Source of the DNA: Methylococcaceae bacterium
GTDB taxonomy: Bacteria; Pseudomonadota; Gammaproteobacteria; Methylococcales; Methylomonadaceae
Reading direction: 5' to 3'
Assembly (NCBI GenBank): GCA_009925045.1
Contig: RFQK01000013.1
Location: 1-15,804 of the forward strand
DNA length: 15,804 nucleotides
The position numbers and the translations under genes are program-made. Shown piece after piece: positions 2,187 to 8,452 of the stretch. How positions within the stretch are numbered: position 1 is the stretch's first letter; each line of letters opens with the position of its first letter. The notes under the pieces were generated by a model, which searched no databases, was not told where the DNA came from, and worked only from the letters and a program-made list of their open reading frames with translations.

Positions 2187-2963
2187 ATGACCCGTATTAT
2201 TTCCGCAAATCTCAATGGCATTCGTTCTGCAGCGAATAAAGGCTTTTTTGAATGGCTTCAGACACAACAGGCTGATTTTGTCTGCATTCAAGAACTCAAA
2301 GCTCAGCTAGCCGATCTCTCCCCTACTATGCTGCAACCTGAAGGTTTTTACGGCTATTTTCATCCGGCCGAAAAAAAAGGCTACAGTGGCGTGGGCATCT
2401 ACAGTCGTCAAGCGGCTGATCAAGTCATCGTCGGCTTAGGTCACGAGGATATCGATAGTGAGGGTCGTTATCTGGAAGTTCAACTCGGCAATTTATCGGT
2501 CATTTCCTTGTACCTGCCATCGGGCTCTAGCAGTGAAGAACGTCAAACCGTCAAATACAGTGTCATGGCGCGTTTTTATCCACACTTACAGCAACTGATT
2601 GCCAGTGGCCGTGATGTGGTGATTTGCGGCGACTGGAATATCGCCCACCACAACATTGATCTAAAAAACTGGCGTAGCAACCAGAAAAACTCTGGTTTTT
2701 TGCCTGAGGAACGTGCCTGGTTGACTCAGGTGTTAACTGACCTGGGCTGGGTAGATGTGTATCGCTTACTCCATCCCGATACCACTGATGGCAGTTACAC
2801 CTGGTGGAGTAACCGAGGTCAGGCCTGGGCCAATAATGTGGGATGGCGGATTGATTATCAGATTGCGACACCTGGCATTGCCAACCAAGCAGTCCATACC
2901 ACTATTTATAAAGAGCAACGCTTTAGTGATCACGCTCCGCTAATCATTGACTATCAAAACTAA
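2187..2963 (+). CDS. xthA: Exodeoxyribonuclease III (AP endonuclease, Xth family)
   Basis: A Mg2+-dependent nuclease of the endonuclease/exonuclease/phosphatase fold that cleaves 5' of abasic sites and removes 3' blocking groups and 3' nucleotides in base-excision repair. It has 258 residues against about 268 for E. coli ExoIII. Conserved motifs appear in order: N-L-N-G-I-R (residues 8-13), C-I-Q-E-L-K with metal ligand Glu36, G-V-G-I-Y-S-R, E-G-R-Y-L-E-V, Y-L-P-S-G, the catalytic C-G-D-W-N-I-A-H segment, W-R-I-D-Y-Q and the terminal S-D-H-A-P (Asp248, His249). The start codon has no clear Shine-Dalgarno and lies only 21 bp past the glnA terminator, so its promoter must sit in the glnA 3' end or it depends on read-through. 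Its last 20 bases overlap the end of the convergent porin gene. It is functionally unrelated to its nitrogen-related neighbours. Confidence 0.92.
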   Translation: MTRIISANLNGIRSAANKGFFEWLQTQQADFVCIQELKAQLADLSPTMLQPEGFYGYFHPAEKKGYSGVGIYSRQAADQVIVGLGHEDIDSEGRYLEVQLGNLSVISLYLPSGSSSEERQTVKYSVMARFYPHLQQLIASGRDVVICGDWNIAHHNIDLKNWRSNQKNSGFLPEERAWLTQVLTDLGWVDVYRLLHPDTTDGSYTWWSNRGQAWANNVGWRIDYQIATPGIANQAVHTTIYKEQRFSDHAPLIIDYQN

Positions 2964-4053
2964 GCACACACGACACCATTAACAACTGCTGATGTCCAAC
3001 TAAACTCTGAACCTGTTCTGACCCTGTATAAAAACCAGCTTGATTGCCGCTGGTAGTATCCAAACGGTATTCCAATCGCCAAAGACTGCTCAAACTGGCT
3101 TGATGGGTTTTATATTCTAGGGTTGCCGTTGCGCCTTTAATCAGTTGTCTCTGACCCGTCATTAATCCATCGGCATCCCAATAGAGTTCTGGTCGAAGCG
3201 CAAGCGCCCATTCTGACTGTAGTTGCCAGCGACCCGACAGCATGGAAGCCAGCCATAATGCTTGTTGCTTGCCCCCTTCCTGGCTACCACTATCAAATGC
3301 CCAGGCCAAGGTTAAGGGCTCTGCAGACCATTGCAGAATACTATCCGAAAAATAACGCCAGCTTGAACCGGAGCTATGCTGCTCAGTTCCCGCAAATAAA
3401 TTATGCGTATATTTCCAGTTTTGATTGATAGTCCAAACCACTTGAGTCGCATATTTTGGTTGCGAGGTTCTGTATGCGAGATAATCATAGTCATTCAGAA
3501 GAAACACACCCAATTGTAAATCTTTGTTAACAGGATATTGCCCTCCAATTCCAATCACATAATACGGTGAATAATCTGCCATCCATGATCGGCTTATGTG
3601 GTTGTTATCTCTGGACCACATTGATTCCAGTCCTATAAAACTATTCATTAGTCCGCCGGTTAGATTTAAACCATTCCCAAAAGGAAGACGATAGCTTAGG
3701 TTGGCACGTGCCAGATAACGTAACCAACTATATCCAGCTATTCGTTGCTGGTCAGGCACCAGACCATCGGTGTCGTAACCAGCCTGCAAAGCCAATTCCA
3801 TTCCCCAGGGCGAGTTTTCCTCCTGTAATTTCCTCAGATAGGCCATACCCATATTAGGTGCCAGCTGATTGAGTCGATTGGTAGTTAATTTGCTACGCCA
3901 AGAACGAGTTTGATCATGCTCAAGATTTGCTGCATATGCAAAATCCAGCATCAATCCCGATTGCCATTCAGCATCCTGAGCATAGCCTTTAGAAGCCCCT
4001 CCCACACAACAAATCCATATTCCCAACACTTGTATTAATCTGGCTAACTTCAT
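2944..4053 (-). CDS. Outer-membrane beta-barrel porin, OmpL-like (BBP2 type)
   Basis: An exported protein of 369 residues. It has a signal peptide (Lys-Leu-Ala-Arg, a hydrophobic core, a G-Y-A-Q cleavage region near residue 25) and then alternating beta strands to the end. The segment N-S-F-I-G-L-E-S-M-W-S-R-D-N-N and the following S-W-M-A-D-Y-S-P-Y-Y-V-I-G-I-G match the shape of the OmpL-like/BBP2 porin family, where a conserved G-x-E is followed by an N-x(n)-S-x-P-x-x-x-x-G segment. It probably forms a passive pore; the substrate is unknown. It is divergent from the ammonium channel gene and shares with it a 126-bp intergenic region holding a large palindrome with NtrC-like dyads, which suggests nitrogen-responsive expression. 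The 3' end overlaps xthA by 20 bases in convergent orientation. It is less similar to the porin at the left edge than a recent duplicate would be. The family call is good; the link to nitrogen is inference. Confidence 0.8.
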   Translation of the reverse strand: MKLARLIQVLGIWICCVGGASKGYAQDAEWQSGLMLDFAYAANLEHDQTRSWRSKLTTNRLNQLAPNMGMAYLRKLQEENSPWGMELALQAGYDTDGLVPDQQRIAGYSWLRYLARANLSYRLPFGNGLNLTGGLMNSFIGLESMWSRDNNHISRSWMADYSPYYVIGIGGQYPVNKDLQLGVFLLNDYDYLAYRTSQPKYATQVVWTINQNWKYTHNLFAGTEQHSSGSSWRYFSDSILQWSAEPLTLAWAFDSGSQEGGKQQALWLASMLSGRWQLQSEWALALRPELYWDADGLMTGQRQLIKGATATLEYKTHQASLSSLWRLEYRLDTTSGNQAGFYTGSEQVQSLVGHQQLLMVSCVLSFDSQ

Positions 4054-4111
4054 TTTTTATCCGAACAAAGTATTCGAAACCCATTCCATATCGACTCTAT
4101 ACTATTTGCAA

Positions 4112-4163
4112 TATGATCCAATATGGTGCAATATACAACAATATTGCACCATATTGGATCATA
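4112..4163. promoter_or_regulatory. Perfect 23-bp inverted repeat with two NtrC-like dyads between porin and amtB
   Basis: Arms at 4112-4134 and 4141-4163 are perfect reverse complements around a 6-base centre (4135-4140). Each arm holds a 17-bp imperfect dyad of the NtrC-site type TGCACC-N5-GGTGCA: TGATCCAATATGGTGCA (4114-4130) and TGCACCATATTGGATCA (4145-4161). In each, one half-site is perfect and the other matches 4 of 6. The dyad centres are 31 bp apart, about three helical turns, close to the spacing of the paired NtrC sites upstream of enteric glnA. The palindrome ends 16 bp before the amtB ATG and lies 58 bp upstream of the porin ATG. It could be a paired NtrC operator or enhancer, a site for another dimeric regulator, or a long hairpin in an amtB leader. 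No good sigma-54 element was found beside it. The repeat is certain; its function is inferred. Confidence 0.62.
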
Positions 4164-4179
4164 AATATAGAGGACTGAC

Positions 4180-5481
4180 ATGATTAACGCCTACAAATGC
4201 AAAGACCTCGCTCTCTTGTTAGGGTTATTAGCCTTTACCAGTAGCACCCGGGCTGATGAAGTTTTAAATTCAGCAGACACTGCATGGATCTTGACTGCCT
4301 CTGGCCTGGTCCTGTTCATGACCGTTCCGGGACTTGCCTTGTTTTACGGTGGACTGGTCAGAACCAAGAATGTTTTATCTATTCTGATGCAATGTTTTGC
4401 CATCACAGCACTCGTCTCTCTGTGCTGGCTTTTGGGCGGATACAGTCTGGCCTTGAGTCATAGCGACTCTTTTAATGCCCTGATTGGTGGCACATCGAAG
4501 TTGTTGTTACTCAATCTGAATGCTGAAAGTATTAAAGACAATCTTCCTGAAACGGTTTATTGCATGTATCACCTGACTTTTGCGATTTTTGCTCCGGCCT
4601 TAATCGTTGGCGGGGTTGCAGAACGCATTAAATTCTCAGCATTACTATGGTTTGTGGCCGCTTGGGAGTTACTGGTCTATATCCCAATATGTCATTGGGT
4701 CTGGGGTGGCGGCTGGTTATCTGAACTAGGCGTGATGGATTTTGCCGGTGGACTCGTGGTCCATGTATCCGGAGGTATAGCCGCTTTGGTGGGTGCAATT
4801 ATGACAAAACCGAGAGTGGGATACCCTCGGGTGATCATGCCACCTCATAACTTAACCATGACCGCAACGGGTGCTGGCATTCTTTGGGTAGGCTGGCACG
4901 GATTCAGTGCTGGCAGTGCGCTAATGGCAAACGGTGCGGCTGGAATTGCAATGCTTTCTACCCATATGAGCGCGGCAGCCGGATCACTGACATGGATGTT
5001 TATCGAATGGAAAAAATTCGGTAAACCCAGTGGTTTGGGGCTCATCACGGGCATGGTTGCGGGTTTAGGCATGATTGCTCCCTCAGCCGGATTTGTGACA
5101 CCGCTCAGCGGGGTTCTGATTGGCGTAGTGTCAGGATTTAGCTGCTTTTACACGCTTCATTGGCTTAAACGTCATTTGACCATCGATGACTCACTCGATG
5201 TATTTTCAATCCATGGTGTTGGCGGGATTGTGGGTTCCATATTAACTGCCCCCTTATCCTCTGAAGCTTTAGGGGGGATAGGCACTTTCTCAGGTAACGG
5301 CATCTGGGGACAGCTTTGTATTCAAATCCTCGCAGTAAGCTCCATTCTGCTCTGGAGCGGAATATTGAGTTGGATTTTACTCAAAATCATCGACAGTGTA
5401 GTGGGCATACGTGTCAGTGTTCAGGATGAAACCGAAGGACTCGATATCTCACAACATAATGAACAAGGCTACAACCTCTAA
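4180..5481 (+). CDS. amtB: Ammonium channel/transporter, Amt family
   Basis: An inner-membrane trimeric channel that recruits NH4+ and conducts NH3 plus H+ (433 residues, close to E. coli AmtB). An N-terminal signal-like segment with a T-R-A-D junction near residue 25 precedes about 11 membrane helices. The twin pore histidines are present as V-V-H195-V and S-I-H345-G. The gate region contains L-T-F134-A and W-H-G-F-S-A-G-S, and A-E-R-I-K-F and H-W-V-W-G-G-G are typical. Residue 131 is His (M-Y-H-L-T-F) near the outer gate, where many relatives have Gln. The C-terminal tail (V-G-I-R-V ... E-G-L-D-I-S-Q-H ... G-Y-N-L) is the conserved part that contacts a PII protein, so GlnK-type inhibition is expected although no glnK is adjacent, unlike the common glnK-amtB operon. 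AGAGGA at 4169-4174 serves as ribosome binding site. It is followed 13 bases later by a small secreted protein gene, probably co-transcribed. Confidence 0.95.
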   Translation: MINAYKCKDLALLLGLLAFTSSTRADEVLNSADTAWILTASGLVLFMTVPGLALFYGGLVRTKNVLSILMQCFAITALVSLCWLLGGYSLALSHSDSFNALIGGTSKLLLLNLNAESIKDNLPETVYCMYHLTFAIFAPALIVGGVAERIKFSALLWFVAAWELLVYIPICHWVWGGGWLSELGVMDFAGGLVVHVSGGIAALVGAIMTKPRVGYPRVIMPPHNLTMTATGAGILWVGWHGFSAGSALMANGAAGIAMLSTHMSAAAGSLTWMFIEWKKFGKPSGLGLITGMVAGLGMIAPSAGFVTPLSGVLIGVVSGFSCFYTLHWLKRHLTIDDSLDVFSIHGVGGIVGSILTAPLSSEALGGIGTFSGNGIWGQLCIQILAVSSILLWSGILSWILLKIIDSVVGIRVSVQDETEGLDISQHNEQGYNL

Positions 5482-5494
5482 GCAGGAACAAAAT

Positions 5495-5821
5495 ATGCGT
5501 ATCAGTCAAATTATATTCATCGTGTTTGCCCTTATTAGCCAATCTGTTCTGGCCATTGATGCTGATGAAGTCATGAACAAAGTTAAATCCATGCCGTGTA
5601 AAAATGATCAAACTGTTGATCAGATCCTCGAACAAACAATTCGTAGCCGTGCCCAGCGTGATATTGGCTGGAGACGTTTTCAGGAAGACAATTATGTGGA
5701 TGTTGAACGAGCGGTGTTAATCACTAAAGGCATGGAGTTTCGTTATCGTTGGAGAGCCCAAAATGACGGGAGCATTGCACCACAAAACGAAAGAACGGAA
5801 AAACTCTGTAGCAACGAGTAG
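5495..5821 (+). CDS. Small secreted protein of unknown function
   Basis: I do not recognise the family. It codes for 108 residues and begins with a clear signal peptide (MRISQ, then a hydrophobic core ending S-V-L-A near residue 20), giving a mature protein of about 88 residues that is probably periplasmic. The mature part is rich in charged residues (E-Q-T-I-R-S-R-A-Q-R-D, R-Y-R-W-R-A-Q-N-D) and has exactly two cysteines, Cys35 and Cys105, which could form a disulfide joining its ends. The start at 5495 is chosen because AGGA (5484-5487) lies 7 bases upstream and the signal peptide begins there; the frame is open further up, inside amtB, but that part would be shadow coding. It sits 13 bases after amtB and just before the ntrB promoter region, so co-expression with amtB is likely. 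Any role in nitrogen uptake is speculation from position. Confidence 0.75.
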   Translation: MRISQIIFIVFALISQSVLAIDADEVMNKVKSMPCKNDQTVDQILEQTIRSRAQRDIGWRRFQEDNYVDVERAVLITKGMEFRYRWRAQNDGSIAPQNERTEKLCSNE

Positions 5822-5826
5822 TAATT

Positions 5827-5841
5827 GCACTAATTAGGTGC
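5827..5841. promoter_or_regulatory. Putative NtrC-binding dyad upstream of ntrBC
   Basis: GCACTAATTAGGTGC has the GCAC-N7-GTGC form of enteric NtrC sites and differs only in a few central bases from the E. coli glnA-type site GCACTATATTGGTGC. Its centre (5834) lies about 109 bp upstream of the start predicted from the sigma-54 element at 5917-5932, a standard enhancer distance. NtrC itself is encoded 1.2 kb downstream, so this would be autoregulation. Confidence 0.68.
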
Positions 5842-5879
5842 GTGTTGTGGCTATTTTGGTTAATTTTACTGCAACACGC
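5840..5879. repeat. 8-bp inverted repeat between the NtrC-like dyad and the -24/-12 element
   Basis: GCGTGTTG (5840-5847) is repeated inverted as CAACACGC (5872-5879), with 24 A/T-rich bases between. It overlaps the last two bases of the NtrC-like dyad. No T run follows, so it is not a normal terminator. It may be a weak stem ending the upstream transcript or a binding site for an accessory bending protein; neither is shown. Confidence 0.4.
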
Positions 5880-5916: not shown

Positions 5917-5932
5917 TGGCTTACAAATTGCT
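5917..5932 (+). promoter_or_regulatory. Sigma-54 (RpoN) -24/-12 promoter of ntrBC
   Basis: TGGCTTACAAATTGCT matches the consensus TGGCAC-N5-TTGCW with the exact GG-N10-GC spacing (GG 5918-5919, GC 5930-5931); only the A and C of TGGCAC differ. Transcription should begin near 5943, leaving a leader of about 26 bases before the ntrB start. Together with the upstream NtrC-like dyad it makes a complete enhancer-dependent promoter. Confidence 0.75.
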
Positions 5933-5968: not shown

Positions 5969-7030
5969 GTGCATAACAAAATTCTCGATCACATCAATGA
6001 AGCCATATTGCTATTCGATAGCGATCTGCGCTTACGCTATATTAATCCTGCCGGTGAAATCCTGTTCACCGATAGCGAGAAGCATTTAGTCGGCAGCCCG
6101 ATTCAAAAGTTATTCAAAACATCTCAGACTCTGATATTTGACGATCTGGTCAAACGACTCAAACAATATGAACCCCTAGTTGACCGCGAATTGATACTTG
6201 ATCGACTCAATAATTCGGTCACGGTTAATCTCAGCGCTACACCTTTACAGGAAAATGGTACTTTTACAGAAACATTGATCGAATTACAGCCAGTTGACCG
6301 CCATTTACGCATTTCGCGTGAGGAGCAATTGCTGGCACAACAAAACACCAGCCGTATGTTAGTACGGGGTTTGGCGCATGAAATCAAAAATCCTCTGGGC
6401 GGCCTCAGAGGCGCCGCCCAATTGCTGGATCTGGAATTGACCGATCCCGAACTCAAAGAATACACCCAAATCATTATTGCCGAATCCGATCGCTTACAGG
6501 ATTTGATGGACAAAATGCTGGGCCCCAATAAACCAGCCCATAAATCCAGCCTCAACATCCATGAAGTTTTAGAACGTGTCCGACAGTTGGTCGCTGTGGA
6601 ATCCACTAGCCAGATTCAGCTTAATACCGATTATGATCCCAGCATCCCCGAACTGATGGCCGACAAAAACCAGCTCATCCAAGCTATTTTGAATATAGTC
6701 CGTAACGCAGTTCAGGCAATTGGCTCACAGGGCAAGATCACCATACGCACGCGCATCAAAAGACATATGACCATCAGTCGGAAACGCCACAAATTGACGG
6801 TCAAGATTGACATTATTGATACCGGACCCGGTATAGCACCGGAACTGATGGAACGGATTTTCTACCCCATGATCACAGGGCGTGCCGAAGGAACGGGGCT
6901 TGGGCTATCTATAGCCCAATCCTTGATCAATCAGCACAATGGCTTGATTGAATGTGAAAGCGAACCGGGGCATACGGTTTTCTCAATCTTCCTACCGATA
7001 AACCCAGCCAAAGCAGAACCGAGGAGATAA
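5969..7030 (+). CDS. glnL: Nitrogen regulation sensor histidine kinase/phosphatase NtrB (GlnL)
   Basis: A cytoplasmic histidine kinase that phosphorylates NtrC under nitrogen limitation and, with PII, dephosphorylates it when nitrogen is plentiful (353 residues; E. coli 349). An N-terminal PAS domain (about residues 1-110) has no membrane segments. The H box is G-L-A-H137-E-I-K-N-P-L-G-G, followed by R-G-A-A-Q-L-L. The ATPase domain shows the N box N-I-V-R-N-A-V-Q-A, the G1 box D-T-G-P-G-I and the G2 box G-T-G-L-G-L-S-I-A. The tail G-H-T-V-F-S-I-F-L-P matches E. coli GlnL. The start is GTG at 5969: an in-frame TAG at 5960 rules out longer products and no ATG serves better. The ribosome binding site is weak, which would keep the kinase scarce relative to NtrC. 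It ends 3 bases before ntrC, so the pair is one operon. Confidence 0.95.
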   Translation: MHNKILDHINEAILLFDSDLRLRYINPAGEILFTDSEKHLVGSPIQKLFKTSQTLIFDDLVKRLKQYEPLVDRELILDRLNNSVTVNLSATPLQENGTFTETLIELQPVDRHLRISREEQLLAQQNTSRMLVRGLAHEIKNPLGGLRGAAQLLDLELTDPELKEYTQIIIAESDRLQDLMDKMLGPNKPAHKSSLNIHEVLERVRQLVAVESTSQIQLNTDYDPSIPELMADKNQLIQAILNIVRNAVQAIGSQGKITIRTRIKRHMTISRKRHKLTVKIDIIDTGPGIAPELMERIFYPMITGRAEGTGLGLSIAQSLINQHNGLIECESEPGHTVFSIFLPINPAKAEPRR

Positions 7031-7033
7031 GCA

Positions 7034-8452
7034 ATGCCTGCCGCCGATACAGTCTGGATCGTTGATGACGATAAATCAATCCGCTGGGTACTCGAAAAAG
7101 CCTTGCAAAAAGCCGGCATTCAAACCCAATGTTTTGCGAGCGCTAATGATTTGCTTAAAGCACTATCGGGCGTATTACCGCAGGCCTTAATCACTGACAT
7201 TCGCATGCCAGGGATGGATGGCTTTGAATTGTTAAGAGAATTACAAAACAATCACCCCGAGTTACCCGTCATTATCATGACTGCGCATTCGGATTTGGAG
7301 AGCGCGGTTTCGGCTTTTCATGGCGGAGCCTTTGAATATTTGCCTAAGCCGTTTGATGTCAATGAAGTACTGGAAACCGTTCAGCGTGCCTGTAATCATA
7401 GTAAAGAATTACAATCGGTAGATTCCGCTGTCGATATCAAGCAATTGGAAGAAAGCACCGAAATTATTGGTGAGGCACCGGCCATGCAGGAAGTATTCCG
7501 GGCTATTGGTCGTTTAGCGCGCTCACATATCACGGTGTTAATTAATGGCGAATCGGGAACCGGTAAAGAACTGGTGGCTAAAGCCCTCCACAAACACAGT
7601 CCTCGTTCCGATCAACCGTTTATCGCCCTCAATATGGCGGCGATTCCACGCGATTTGATGGAGTCCGAGTTATTCGGGCATGAAAAAGGCTCGTTTACCG
7701 GCGCCCAAGCGCGTCGTATTGGCCGTTTTGAACAAGCTAATAACGGCACCCTGTTTCTGGATGAAATCGGCGACATGCCGGCTGAATTACAAACACGTTT
7801 ATTGCGCGTCTTGGCCGACAACGAGTTTTATCCAGTTGGTGCGCACAGCTCGGTTAAAGTTAACGTACGTATTATCGCCGCAACCCATCAAAACCTGGAA
7901 CAACTGGTGGCTGAAGGCCGTTTCAGAGAAGACTTATTTCACCGTTTAAACGTTATCAGGATTCAAATTCCACCGCTCAGGGAGCGTCGTCAGGATATTG
8001 GTATTCTAATGCGACATTTTCTGTTCTTGAGTGCGAAAGAACTGGGTACAGAAATTAAAGTCCTCAGACCGGAAACCGAAGCTTTCTTAAGTAACTTTAA
8101 ATGGCCAGGTAACGTCAGACAATTAGAAAATATTTGTCGCTGGCTGACGGTGATGGCCTCTGGACGTGAAATTCATATCGAAGACCTGCCGTCTGAGGTT
8201 TCTCAAGCCACCTATATGGCCGAAGATGCTGATCCTGGTAACTGGCAACATTTATTCGCGCTCTGGGTACAACAACAACTCAATGAAGGCCGACCAGAAA
8301 TCGCTAAACAAGCCATTCCTGCAGTCGAAACGCTGCTGATTCAAACCGCTCTGCAATTCACACATGGTCGCAAGCATGAAGCCGCTTTGTTATTGGGTCT
8401 GGGCAGAAACACCCTGACACGCAAGCTTAAAGAGCTAGATATCGAGGATTAA
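7034..8452 (+). CDS. glnG: Nitrogen regulation response regulator NtrC (GlnG), sigma-54 activator
   Basis: A transcription activator that, when phosphorylated by NtrB, oligomerises on enhancers and drives open-complex formation by sigma-54 RNA polymerase (472 residues, family length). The receiver domain has acidic pocket V-D11-D12-D13 and phospho-acceptor Asp55 in T-D-I-R-M-P-G-M-D-G. The AAA+ domain has Walker A G-E-S-G-T-G-K178-E (172-179), the sigma-54-contacting loop as G-S-F-T-G-A (219-224) instead of the usual GAFTGA, Walker B T-L-F-L-D-E-I-G-D and arginine-finger segment F-R-E-D-L-F-H-R-L-N. The C-terminal Fis-type helix-turn-helix is A-A-L-L-L-G-L-G-R-N-T-L-T-R-K-L-K-E-L. GAGGAG sits about 8 bases before the ATG, much stronger than the signal of ntrB. 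Likely targets in the window are the dyads at 4114-4161 and 5827-5841. The Ser in the loop is the only unusual feature. Confidence 0.97.
   Translation: MPAADTVWIVDDDKSIRWVLEKALQKAGIQTQCFASANDLLKALSGVLPQALITDIRMPGMDGFELLRELQNNHPELPVIIMTAHSDLESAVSAFHGGAFEYLPKPFDVNEVLETVQRACNHSKELQSVDSAVDIKQLEESTEIIGEAPAMQEVFRAIGRLARSHITVLINGESGTGKELVAKALHKHSPRSDQPFIALNMAAIPRDLMESELFGHEKGSFTGAQARRIGRFEQANNGTLFLDEIGDMPAELQTRLLRVLADNEFYPVGAHSSVKVNVRIIAATHQNLEQLVAEGRFREDLFHRLNVIRIQIPPLRERRQDIGILMRHFLFLSAKELGTEIKVLRPETEAFLSNFKWPGNVRQLENICRWLTVMASGREIHIEDLPSEVSQATYMAEDADPGNWQHLFALWVQQQLNEGRPEIAKQAIPAVETLLIQTALQFTHGRKHEAALLLGLGRNTLTRKLKELDIED

Follow-up and report, generated by a model that had tools for sequence, protein, structure and literature searches.

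What does a long perfect palindrome do when it stands between a porin gene and the ammonium channel gene amtB, which of its features is kept by evolution, which gene does it serve and in which direction does it act? We addressed these questions in a Methylococcaceae bacterium (assembly GCA_009925045.1, contig RFQK01000013.1), where the window, i.e., the whole stretch of DNA that was analysed, covers 15,804 nucleotides. The genome measures 2.0 Mb in 478 contigs and is 83% complete; it encodes a PmoA-type protein (PF02461), and the source is therefore probably a methane oxidiser, perhaps of a Methylomonas-like genus. Amt genes are textbook NtrC-activated genes, and ammonia competes with methane at the monooxygenase. 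The genes of the window are, in order, glnA, an exonuclease-like gene (these two named by eye from their translations), a porin gene (BBP2) on the minus strand, amtB, a small gene, glnL and glnG (Table 1). The small protein was found beside the amtB relatives in 15 of the 15 loci examined, with 35–56% identity, and matched no Pfam or NCBIfam model. Rfam, used at gathering thresholds over the whole window, gave two tRNAs and nothing else. Our comparison with relatives provides a clear case in which paired dyads are conserved and the perfect palindrome is apparently secondary, and the place of this conserved NtrC pair on the predicted amtB core promoter suggests a regulatory sign opposite to the textbook one.

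Table 1. Features of the amtB region and its neighbours, in positions of the window
Feature	Position	Strand	Remark
Porin gene (BBP2), divergent from amtB	2944..4053	-	PF07642; improbable target of the operator
MarR-type box TATCGACTCTATA	4089..4101	.	11/12 match to TATCGA-N-TCGATA; shortly before the -35
Predicted sigma-70 -35, TTGCAA	4106..4111	+	Best placement; starts eight bases before dyad 1
Perfect inverted repeat	4112..4163	.	23-bp arms 4112-4134 and 4141-4163, 6-nt centre; 23/23 complementary (100%)
NtrC-like dyad 1, TGATCCAATATGGTGCA (TGATCC-N5-GGTGCA)	4114..4130	+	12/14 consensus positions
Predicted sigma-70 -10, CAATAT	4129..4134	+	N17 from the -35
NtrC-like dyad 2, TGCACCATATTGGATCA (TGCACC-N5-GGATCA)	4145..4161	+	12/14 consensus positions
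Putative Shine-Dalgarno-like GAGGA of amtB	4170..4174	+	Read from the sequence
amtB, ammonium transporter / ammonium channel	4180..5481	+	PF00909; TIGR00836 over cut-off
Small gene after amtB	5411-5821		Conserved neighbour
NtrC-like site before glnL, TGCACTAATTAGGTGCG	5826..5842	+	11 of 14; comparison within the window
Sigma-54 element before glnL, TGGCTTACAAATTGCT	5917..5932	+	9 of 12; 91 bp after the start of the NtrC-like site
glnL (ntrB), sensor kinase	5969..7030	+	NF008293 over cut-off
glnG (ntrC), presumed binder of the operator	7034..8452	+	TIGR01818 over cut-off; C-terminal 90 residues match NtrC domain 1ntc

The original prediction, made from the letters of this DNA, read the palindrome as two perfect inverted arms around a 6-base centre, each with its own 17-bp NtrC-like dyad, and both readings were recovered: all 23 pairs form, and the palindrome is the sole inverted repeat reported between 3700 and 4500 with default settings. 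Each dyad agrees with 10 of the 12 positions of the NtrC-site form TGCACC-N5-GGTGCA and with 12 of the 14 of the E. coli NtrC box TGCACCAnnnTGGTGCA (our scoring consensus, taken from the accessible part of PMC8743547), which makes them putative sites by motif match, with 31 bp between their centres (4122 and 4153). Note that a loose NtrC pattern applied to the window's entire genome gave 426 matches versus 286 for the reversed control, which is too weak for use. At E <= 1e-180, amtB was carried by 11 of the 37 genomes of the genus, the window included (G007, where the gene is seemingly in pieces, was left out), and the other ten proteins share 70–80% with that of the window, no closer one having been found in our searches; more distant Amt relatives, which were left out of the comparison, amounted to at least 80 loci in the contig scan, the best identity among the matches listed being 59%. 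In the 11 aligned upstream regions (130 bp each), two NtrC-like sites of at least 9/14 lying 18–33 bp apart were present in 10, whereas 300 rounds of single-base shuffles gave 0.06 on average and never more than 1; the pair was found in 8/11 at 10/14 and in 5/11 at 11/14, and these counts are not independent since the 11 sequences are related by descent. Dyad 1 scores 10–12/14 in nine of the ten relatives and is degraded (below 9) in L025 from genome G022, dyad 2 scores 9–12/14 in all ten, and of the ten sequences measured, nine have a spacing of 30 or 31 bp and L025 one of 28. L026, which has three NtrC-like sites spaced by 22 and 20 bp, near whole helical turns, was left out of the spacing and arm-pairing measurements because its sites are spaced otherwise. 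Among amtB relatives from other genera of the family (n = 18) the pair was found in none. Site pairs also lie upstream of three amtB relatives of another family of the order (L027, L028, L029).

An NtrC with a matching DNA-binding helix is present in the window. Indeed, the glnG product scores over the NtrC equivalog cut-off (TIGR01818), and its helix reads GRNTLTRKLKEL, as in four of seven relatives, GRNTLTRKIKEL being found in three; the aligned 1ntc, which we take to be an alanine mutant at this helix, reads GAATLTAKLKEL. The loop of this protein is GSFTGA in the window, L147 and L148 and GAFTGA in five other relatives. Our sigma-54 scan (TGGCACG-N4-TTGCW with GG-N10-GC required) detected an element of 9–10 of 12 in eight of eight genomes, situated 50–52 bp upstream of the start used for glnL and itself preceded, at 67–100 bp, by an NtrC-like site of 10–13 of 14. 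This set comprised the window and seven relatives, L151 and L153 having no glnL match in the stretch and the G030 contig being short; in the window, as in all seven relatives examined, glnLG thus possess a sigma-54-like promoter of their own, accompanied by an NtrC-like site. Because the pair at amtB is conserved, an ntrC equivalog lies in the window and an NtrC-like site stands at the glnL sigma-54 element, the two dyads have the appearance of genuine NtrC sites.

The original prediction found no sigma-54 element beside the operator, and the relatives agree: within 350 bp of amtB, on either strand, no conserved element with GG and GC 10 bp apart was detected in the 11 sequences, and thus no conserved -24/-12 region within reach of an enhancer. 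Only isolated matches occurred, namely 9 of 12 at -301 in the window, 10 of 12 at -326 with another 10 on the minus strand in L024, 8 of 12 at -54 on dyad 1 with 9 on the minus strand in L026, and 8 or less, or none, in the remaining sequences. At other Amt loci of relatives, sigma-54 elements of at least 10 of 12 were found with NtrC-like sites of at least 10 of 14 placed 69–100 bp ahead in 7/8 loci fetched (L257 being the exception), a count scored by the presence of the elements and not by which gene, Amt or PII, each element faces. The pair pattern GGTGCA-N12-16-GCACN5TGG, searched in the 37 genomes, matched in 28. Among 29 loci examined, 16 matches fell inside open reading frames, and the 15 of those that are not amtB are probably due to chance. 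The intergenic pairs away from amtB have a sigma-54-like element (at least 9 of 12) nearby in six of seven cases (none at L268), at 61–97 bp in L263, L275, L279 and L280, at 74 and 114 bp in L271 and at 227 bp in L266 (a locus leading to a PII gene). Neighbours of 112 residues in L263 and L280 were considered as PII and discarded, as Pfam found no family. At amtB, six of the seven loci with the pair pattern have no sigma-54-like element oriented to the gene, and the single match of the window falls within the porin gene, at a distance of 246 bp upstream.

Which promoter, then, do the dyads touch? Anchored on dyad 1, 794 sigma-70 placements (position by spacer) were scored over the 11 sequences, and the best was TTGcca-N17-CATTAT with a mean of 8.27 of 12 (z 6.3, a ranking value only since the placements overlap); the second and third (7.55 and 6.82) use the same -35. 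In the ten relatives the -35 reads TTGCCA in five and other TTG hexamers in five, and the -10 is CATTAT or CAATAT in 8/11 sequences (CATTAT in five of the ten relatives). With this placement amtB transcripts would start near 4141, so that dyad 1, centred at about -19, fills the conserved N17 spacer and overlaps the -10 by two bases, and dyad 2, centred at about +13, follows the predicted start and covers about +5 to +21; the NtrC sites therefore lie over the predicted core promoter and its start. The hexamer TATACT, formerly proposed as the -10, does occur at 4098-4103, and in the window alone TCGAAA-N18-TATACT reaches 9 of 12, compared with 7 of 12 for the weak hexamers TTGCAA/CAATAT; therefore, amtB of the window may use this upstream start as well. 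However, the TATACT offset averages 3.9–4.6 of 12 over the 11 sequences versus 8.27 for the TTGcca/CATTAT promoter, and it was rejected as the conserved -10, being poorly kept and overlapping the MarR-type box. Whichever of the two starts is used, the dyads would fall over the core promoter or immediately downstream of the start.

Repression of a sigma-70 promoter, the second option of the original prediction, fits best, with dyad 1 in the conserved spacer, and we consider with moderate confidence that a paired NtrC operator covers the sigma-70 core promoter of amtB and that NtrC represses the gene. What the sequences show is that the sites exist and are conserved, that a sigma-54 element is missing and that the promoter fits, from which we infer NtrC binding and, by geometry, a sign that is probably negative. 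With three helical turns between them, two NtrC dimers would bind jointly and exclude RNA polymerase by occlusion, the same NtrC would activate glnL via sigma-54 and, in many relatives, other Amt genes too, and the MarR-type box just upstream of the -35 would provide a second input to amtB. Several observations speak against repression: the window's own promoter scores below the TATACT one, dyad 1 is weak in L025, and sigma-54-like matches exist in L026 (at -54) and L024 (at -326). Moreover, an ammonium channel that is off under nitrogen limitation would be physiologically odd, most of all in G003, a 99% complete genome in which this Amt alone was found in our search. A positive enhancer, downstream or distant, acting on an unrecognised sigma-54 promoter of amtB would explain G003 and accord with the weak match in L026; it would also correspond to the direction in which NtrC ordinarily acts on Amt genes, as seen for Caulobacter, where NtrC activates glnK and its AmtB-family neighbour (excerpts of PMC10274813), and as suggested by the sigma-54 elements with NtrC-like sites at the other Amt loci of relatives. 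However, the lack of a conserved GG-N10-GC upstream of amtB in 11 sequences, when 8/8 glnL regions have one, makes this explanation unlikely.

The palindrome could also form a 5′ mRNA hairpin of amtB, transcribed from the TATACT promoter and acting on stability or translation, which the original prediction had kept as its rival reading. In the window the leader folds at -35.2 kcal/mol (z -8.83 against shuffles), and the better score of the TATACT promoter there points the same way. However, this promoter is not conserved at its offset, arm pairing drops from 23/23 in the window to 7–14 of 23 positions in nine relatives whereas the dyads are retained, and the leader fold of ten relatives gives z values from -2.35 to +0.39, none being below -2.4. 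The pairing expected of a structured leader is thus lost in nine relatives by base pairs and in 10/10 by fold, and on both grounds we rejected the hairpin, which now appears quite improbable. The original prediction had proposed to weigh the two dyads against the whole palindrome across related genomes, and the converse outcome, in which hairpin pairing is kept and the GGTGCA halves are lost, was looked for in the relatives and did not occur. Since palindrome and hairpin are lost in relatives and the dyad pair is kept, the conserved feature is the paired putative NtrC operator of amtB. As for the perfect palindrome, it is probably a secondary by-product: two copies of one dyad would by nature make an imperfect inverted repeat, whose arms template switching could then make identical (cf. 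the abstracts of PMC8604942 and PMC8794818). An assembly error may also be its source.

The double operator had been assigned in common to the porin and amtB, and the relatives support the double site but not the sharing. The position between the two genes argues for the porin in the window, and a porin gene is divergent from amtB in 5/11 genomes (the window, G003, G009, G011 and G030). In the stretch examined, no porin match lies beside amtB in G002, G013, G006, G017 and G022, and that of G024 is limited to 32 residues. At 9 of 14 the pair persists in five of these six genomes, G022 (L025) being the exception; the operator therefore appears to belong to amtB, its sharing with the porin is not supported, and we rejected a common operator on gene order. 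In addition, the poor -24/-12 element suggested for the porin at 4088-4074 (minus strand) had no match in the sigma-54 scan, the best GG-N10-GC on that strand within 350 bp scoring 6 of 12 in the window, and no minus-strand sigma-54 candidate was found in porin-bearing L018 and L019, so that an operator for the porin, alone or with amtB, is very improbable. That the sites belong to another regulator, Fis-like or unknown, is conceivable insofar as NtrC binding is deduced from motif and context, and is very improbable given the 12/14 match to the E. coli box (accessible part of PMC8743547), the NtrC equivalog on the same contig and the resemblance to dyads that precede sigma-54 elements at glnL and other Amt loci.

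The preferred reading, repression by a paired NtrC operator, includes the second input upstream. All 11 amtB sequences have a block with 9–11 of the 12 positions of TATCGA-N-TCGATA, which we tried as a -10 region and as a sigma-54 element, neither spacing being fitted. Over 300 bp upstream of amtB relatives from other genera of the family, the box reaches at least 9 in 13/18 and at least 10 in 7/18, compared with 16% and 1.5% expected in random DNA of this length; L128, cut off by a contig end, was left out, and L141–L145, judged by eye, seem to be PII-linked Amt genes with a PII coding sequence upstream. L027, L028 and L029 have no clear box (best 7–8 of 12). Genome-wide, matches to this box palindrome (<=1 mismatch) outnumber those to the reversed control in seven of eight genomes (e.g., 33 vs 4 in G160, 35 vs 9 in G013 and 8 vs 3 in the window's genome), but not in G003 (7 vs 10). 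In G116 (L179, L185), GAATCGATATTAG recurs many times, with near-identical surroundings for the two copies read; it is probably a dispersed repeat and accounts for part of the enrichment in that genome. At loci L191–L214, 19 of 27 box matches are intergenic, with some places counted twice and L207–L214 hand-picked, and nearby genes encode carbonic anhydrase, cytochrome P460, MlaA, a SulP transporter, an ATP-synthase-type subunit and a MarR-family protein. Of the 237 genomes of the family, 193 encode a relative of this MarR protein at E <= 1e-25, and 29 of the 30 best loci (not L243) have a box (<=2 mismatches) 53–82 bp before the start of the protein match, versus 0/30 for the reversed control; these loci (L215–L244) are all from one genus and hence not independent. 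The ortholog was not found in the window's incomplete assembly, where the sole relative found is a MarR paralogue, and boxes (<=2 mismatches) were present in 0/8 paralogue loci. Judged from sequence, the boxes suggest a MarR-type regulon in this family of methanotrophs, whose regulator may bind upstream of amtB.

Titles and abstracts on NtrC repression of amtB or ammonium transporters (subscription journals being mostly out of reach), as well as those on methanotroph amtB with NtrC and on Methylomonas ammonium-transporter transcriptomes, did not report this arrangement; in Methylobacter, ammonium transporters rose after nitrate exposure, the part of PMC6977074 at hand leaving the genes unspecified. 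Altogether, we tentatively propose, as a possibility that falls short of an even chance, that one NtrC in the same genus controls two kinds of channel in opposite directions: other Amt genes (PII-linked, as checked in G034) would be activated via sigma-54, and the present one would be repressed by the paired operator placed over its sigma-70 promoter, with a MarR-family regulator acting on this promoter too (possible targets being, e.g., carbonic anhydrase and cytochrome P460). If control is indeed opposite, this channel would serve nitrogen-replete cells, perhaps in the ammonia balance of methane oxidisers. The arrangement therefore offers a direct test of whether methanotrophs keep separate ammonium channels for nitrogen-poor and nitrogen-rich life.

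At enteric glnAp2, the tandem enhancer consists of two NtrC sites about three helical turns apart, situated about 100 bp upstream of the -24/-12 element. The amtB pair likewise has two NtrC-like sites about three helical turns apart, but it overlaps the predicted promoter and start instead of lying far upstream. Its MarR-type box recalls EctR, a MarR-type methylotroph protein with an operator overlapping a -10 region and, in one of the two species tested, with control over its own gene; however, in the portions of PMC5924519 available the EctR half-sites are A/T-rich, 8 bp long and 2 bp apart, a form that the TATCGA-N-TCGATA box, with its 6-1-6 layout, does not have. NtrC is known to repress genes that are not under sigma-54 control (excerpts of PMC3870243, PMC10746234 and PMC10274813). 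In E. coli, NtrC represses the sigma-70 promoters glnAp1 and glnLp (sections of PMC3870243), and the amtB case would resemble these in being a sigma-70 promoter under negative NtrC control by nitrogen; in contrast to them, the target is an ammonium channel, two similar sites 30–31 bp apart fall on one core promoter, and no sigma-54 element was found in the control region. Finally, nfeR1 of Sinorhizobium meliloti also combines a sigma-70 promoter, a second regulator and NtrC as repressor; according to the text seen of PMC10746234, NtrC binds there at -95 to -121 and is thought to exclude an activator, whereas the amtB pair would cover the core promoter itself.
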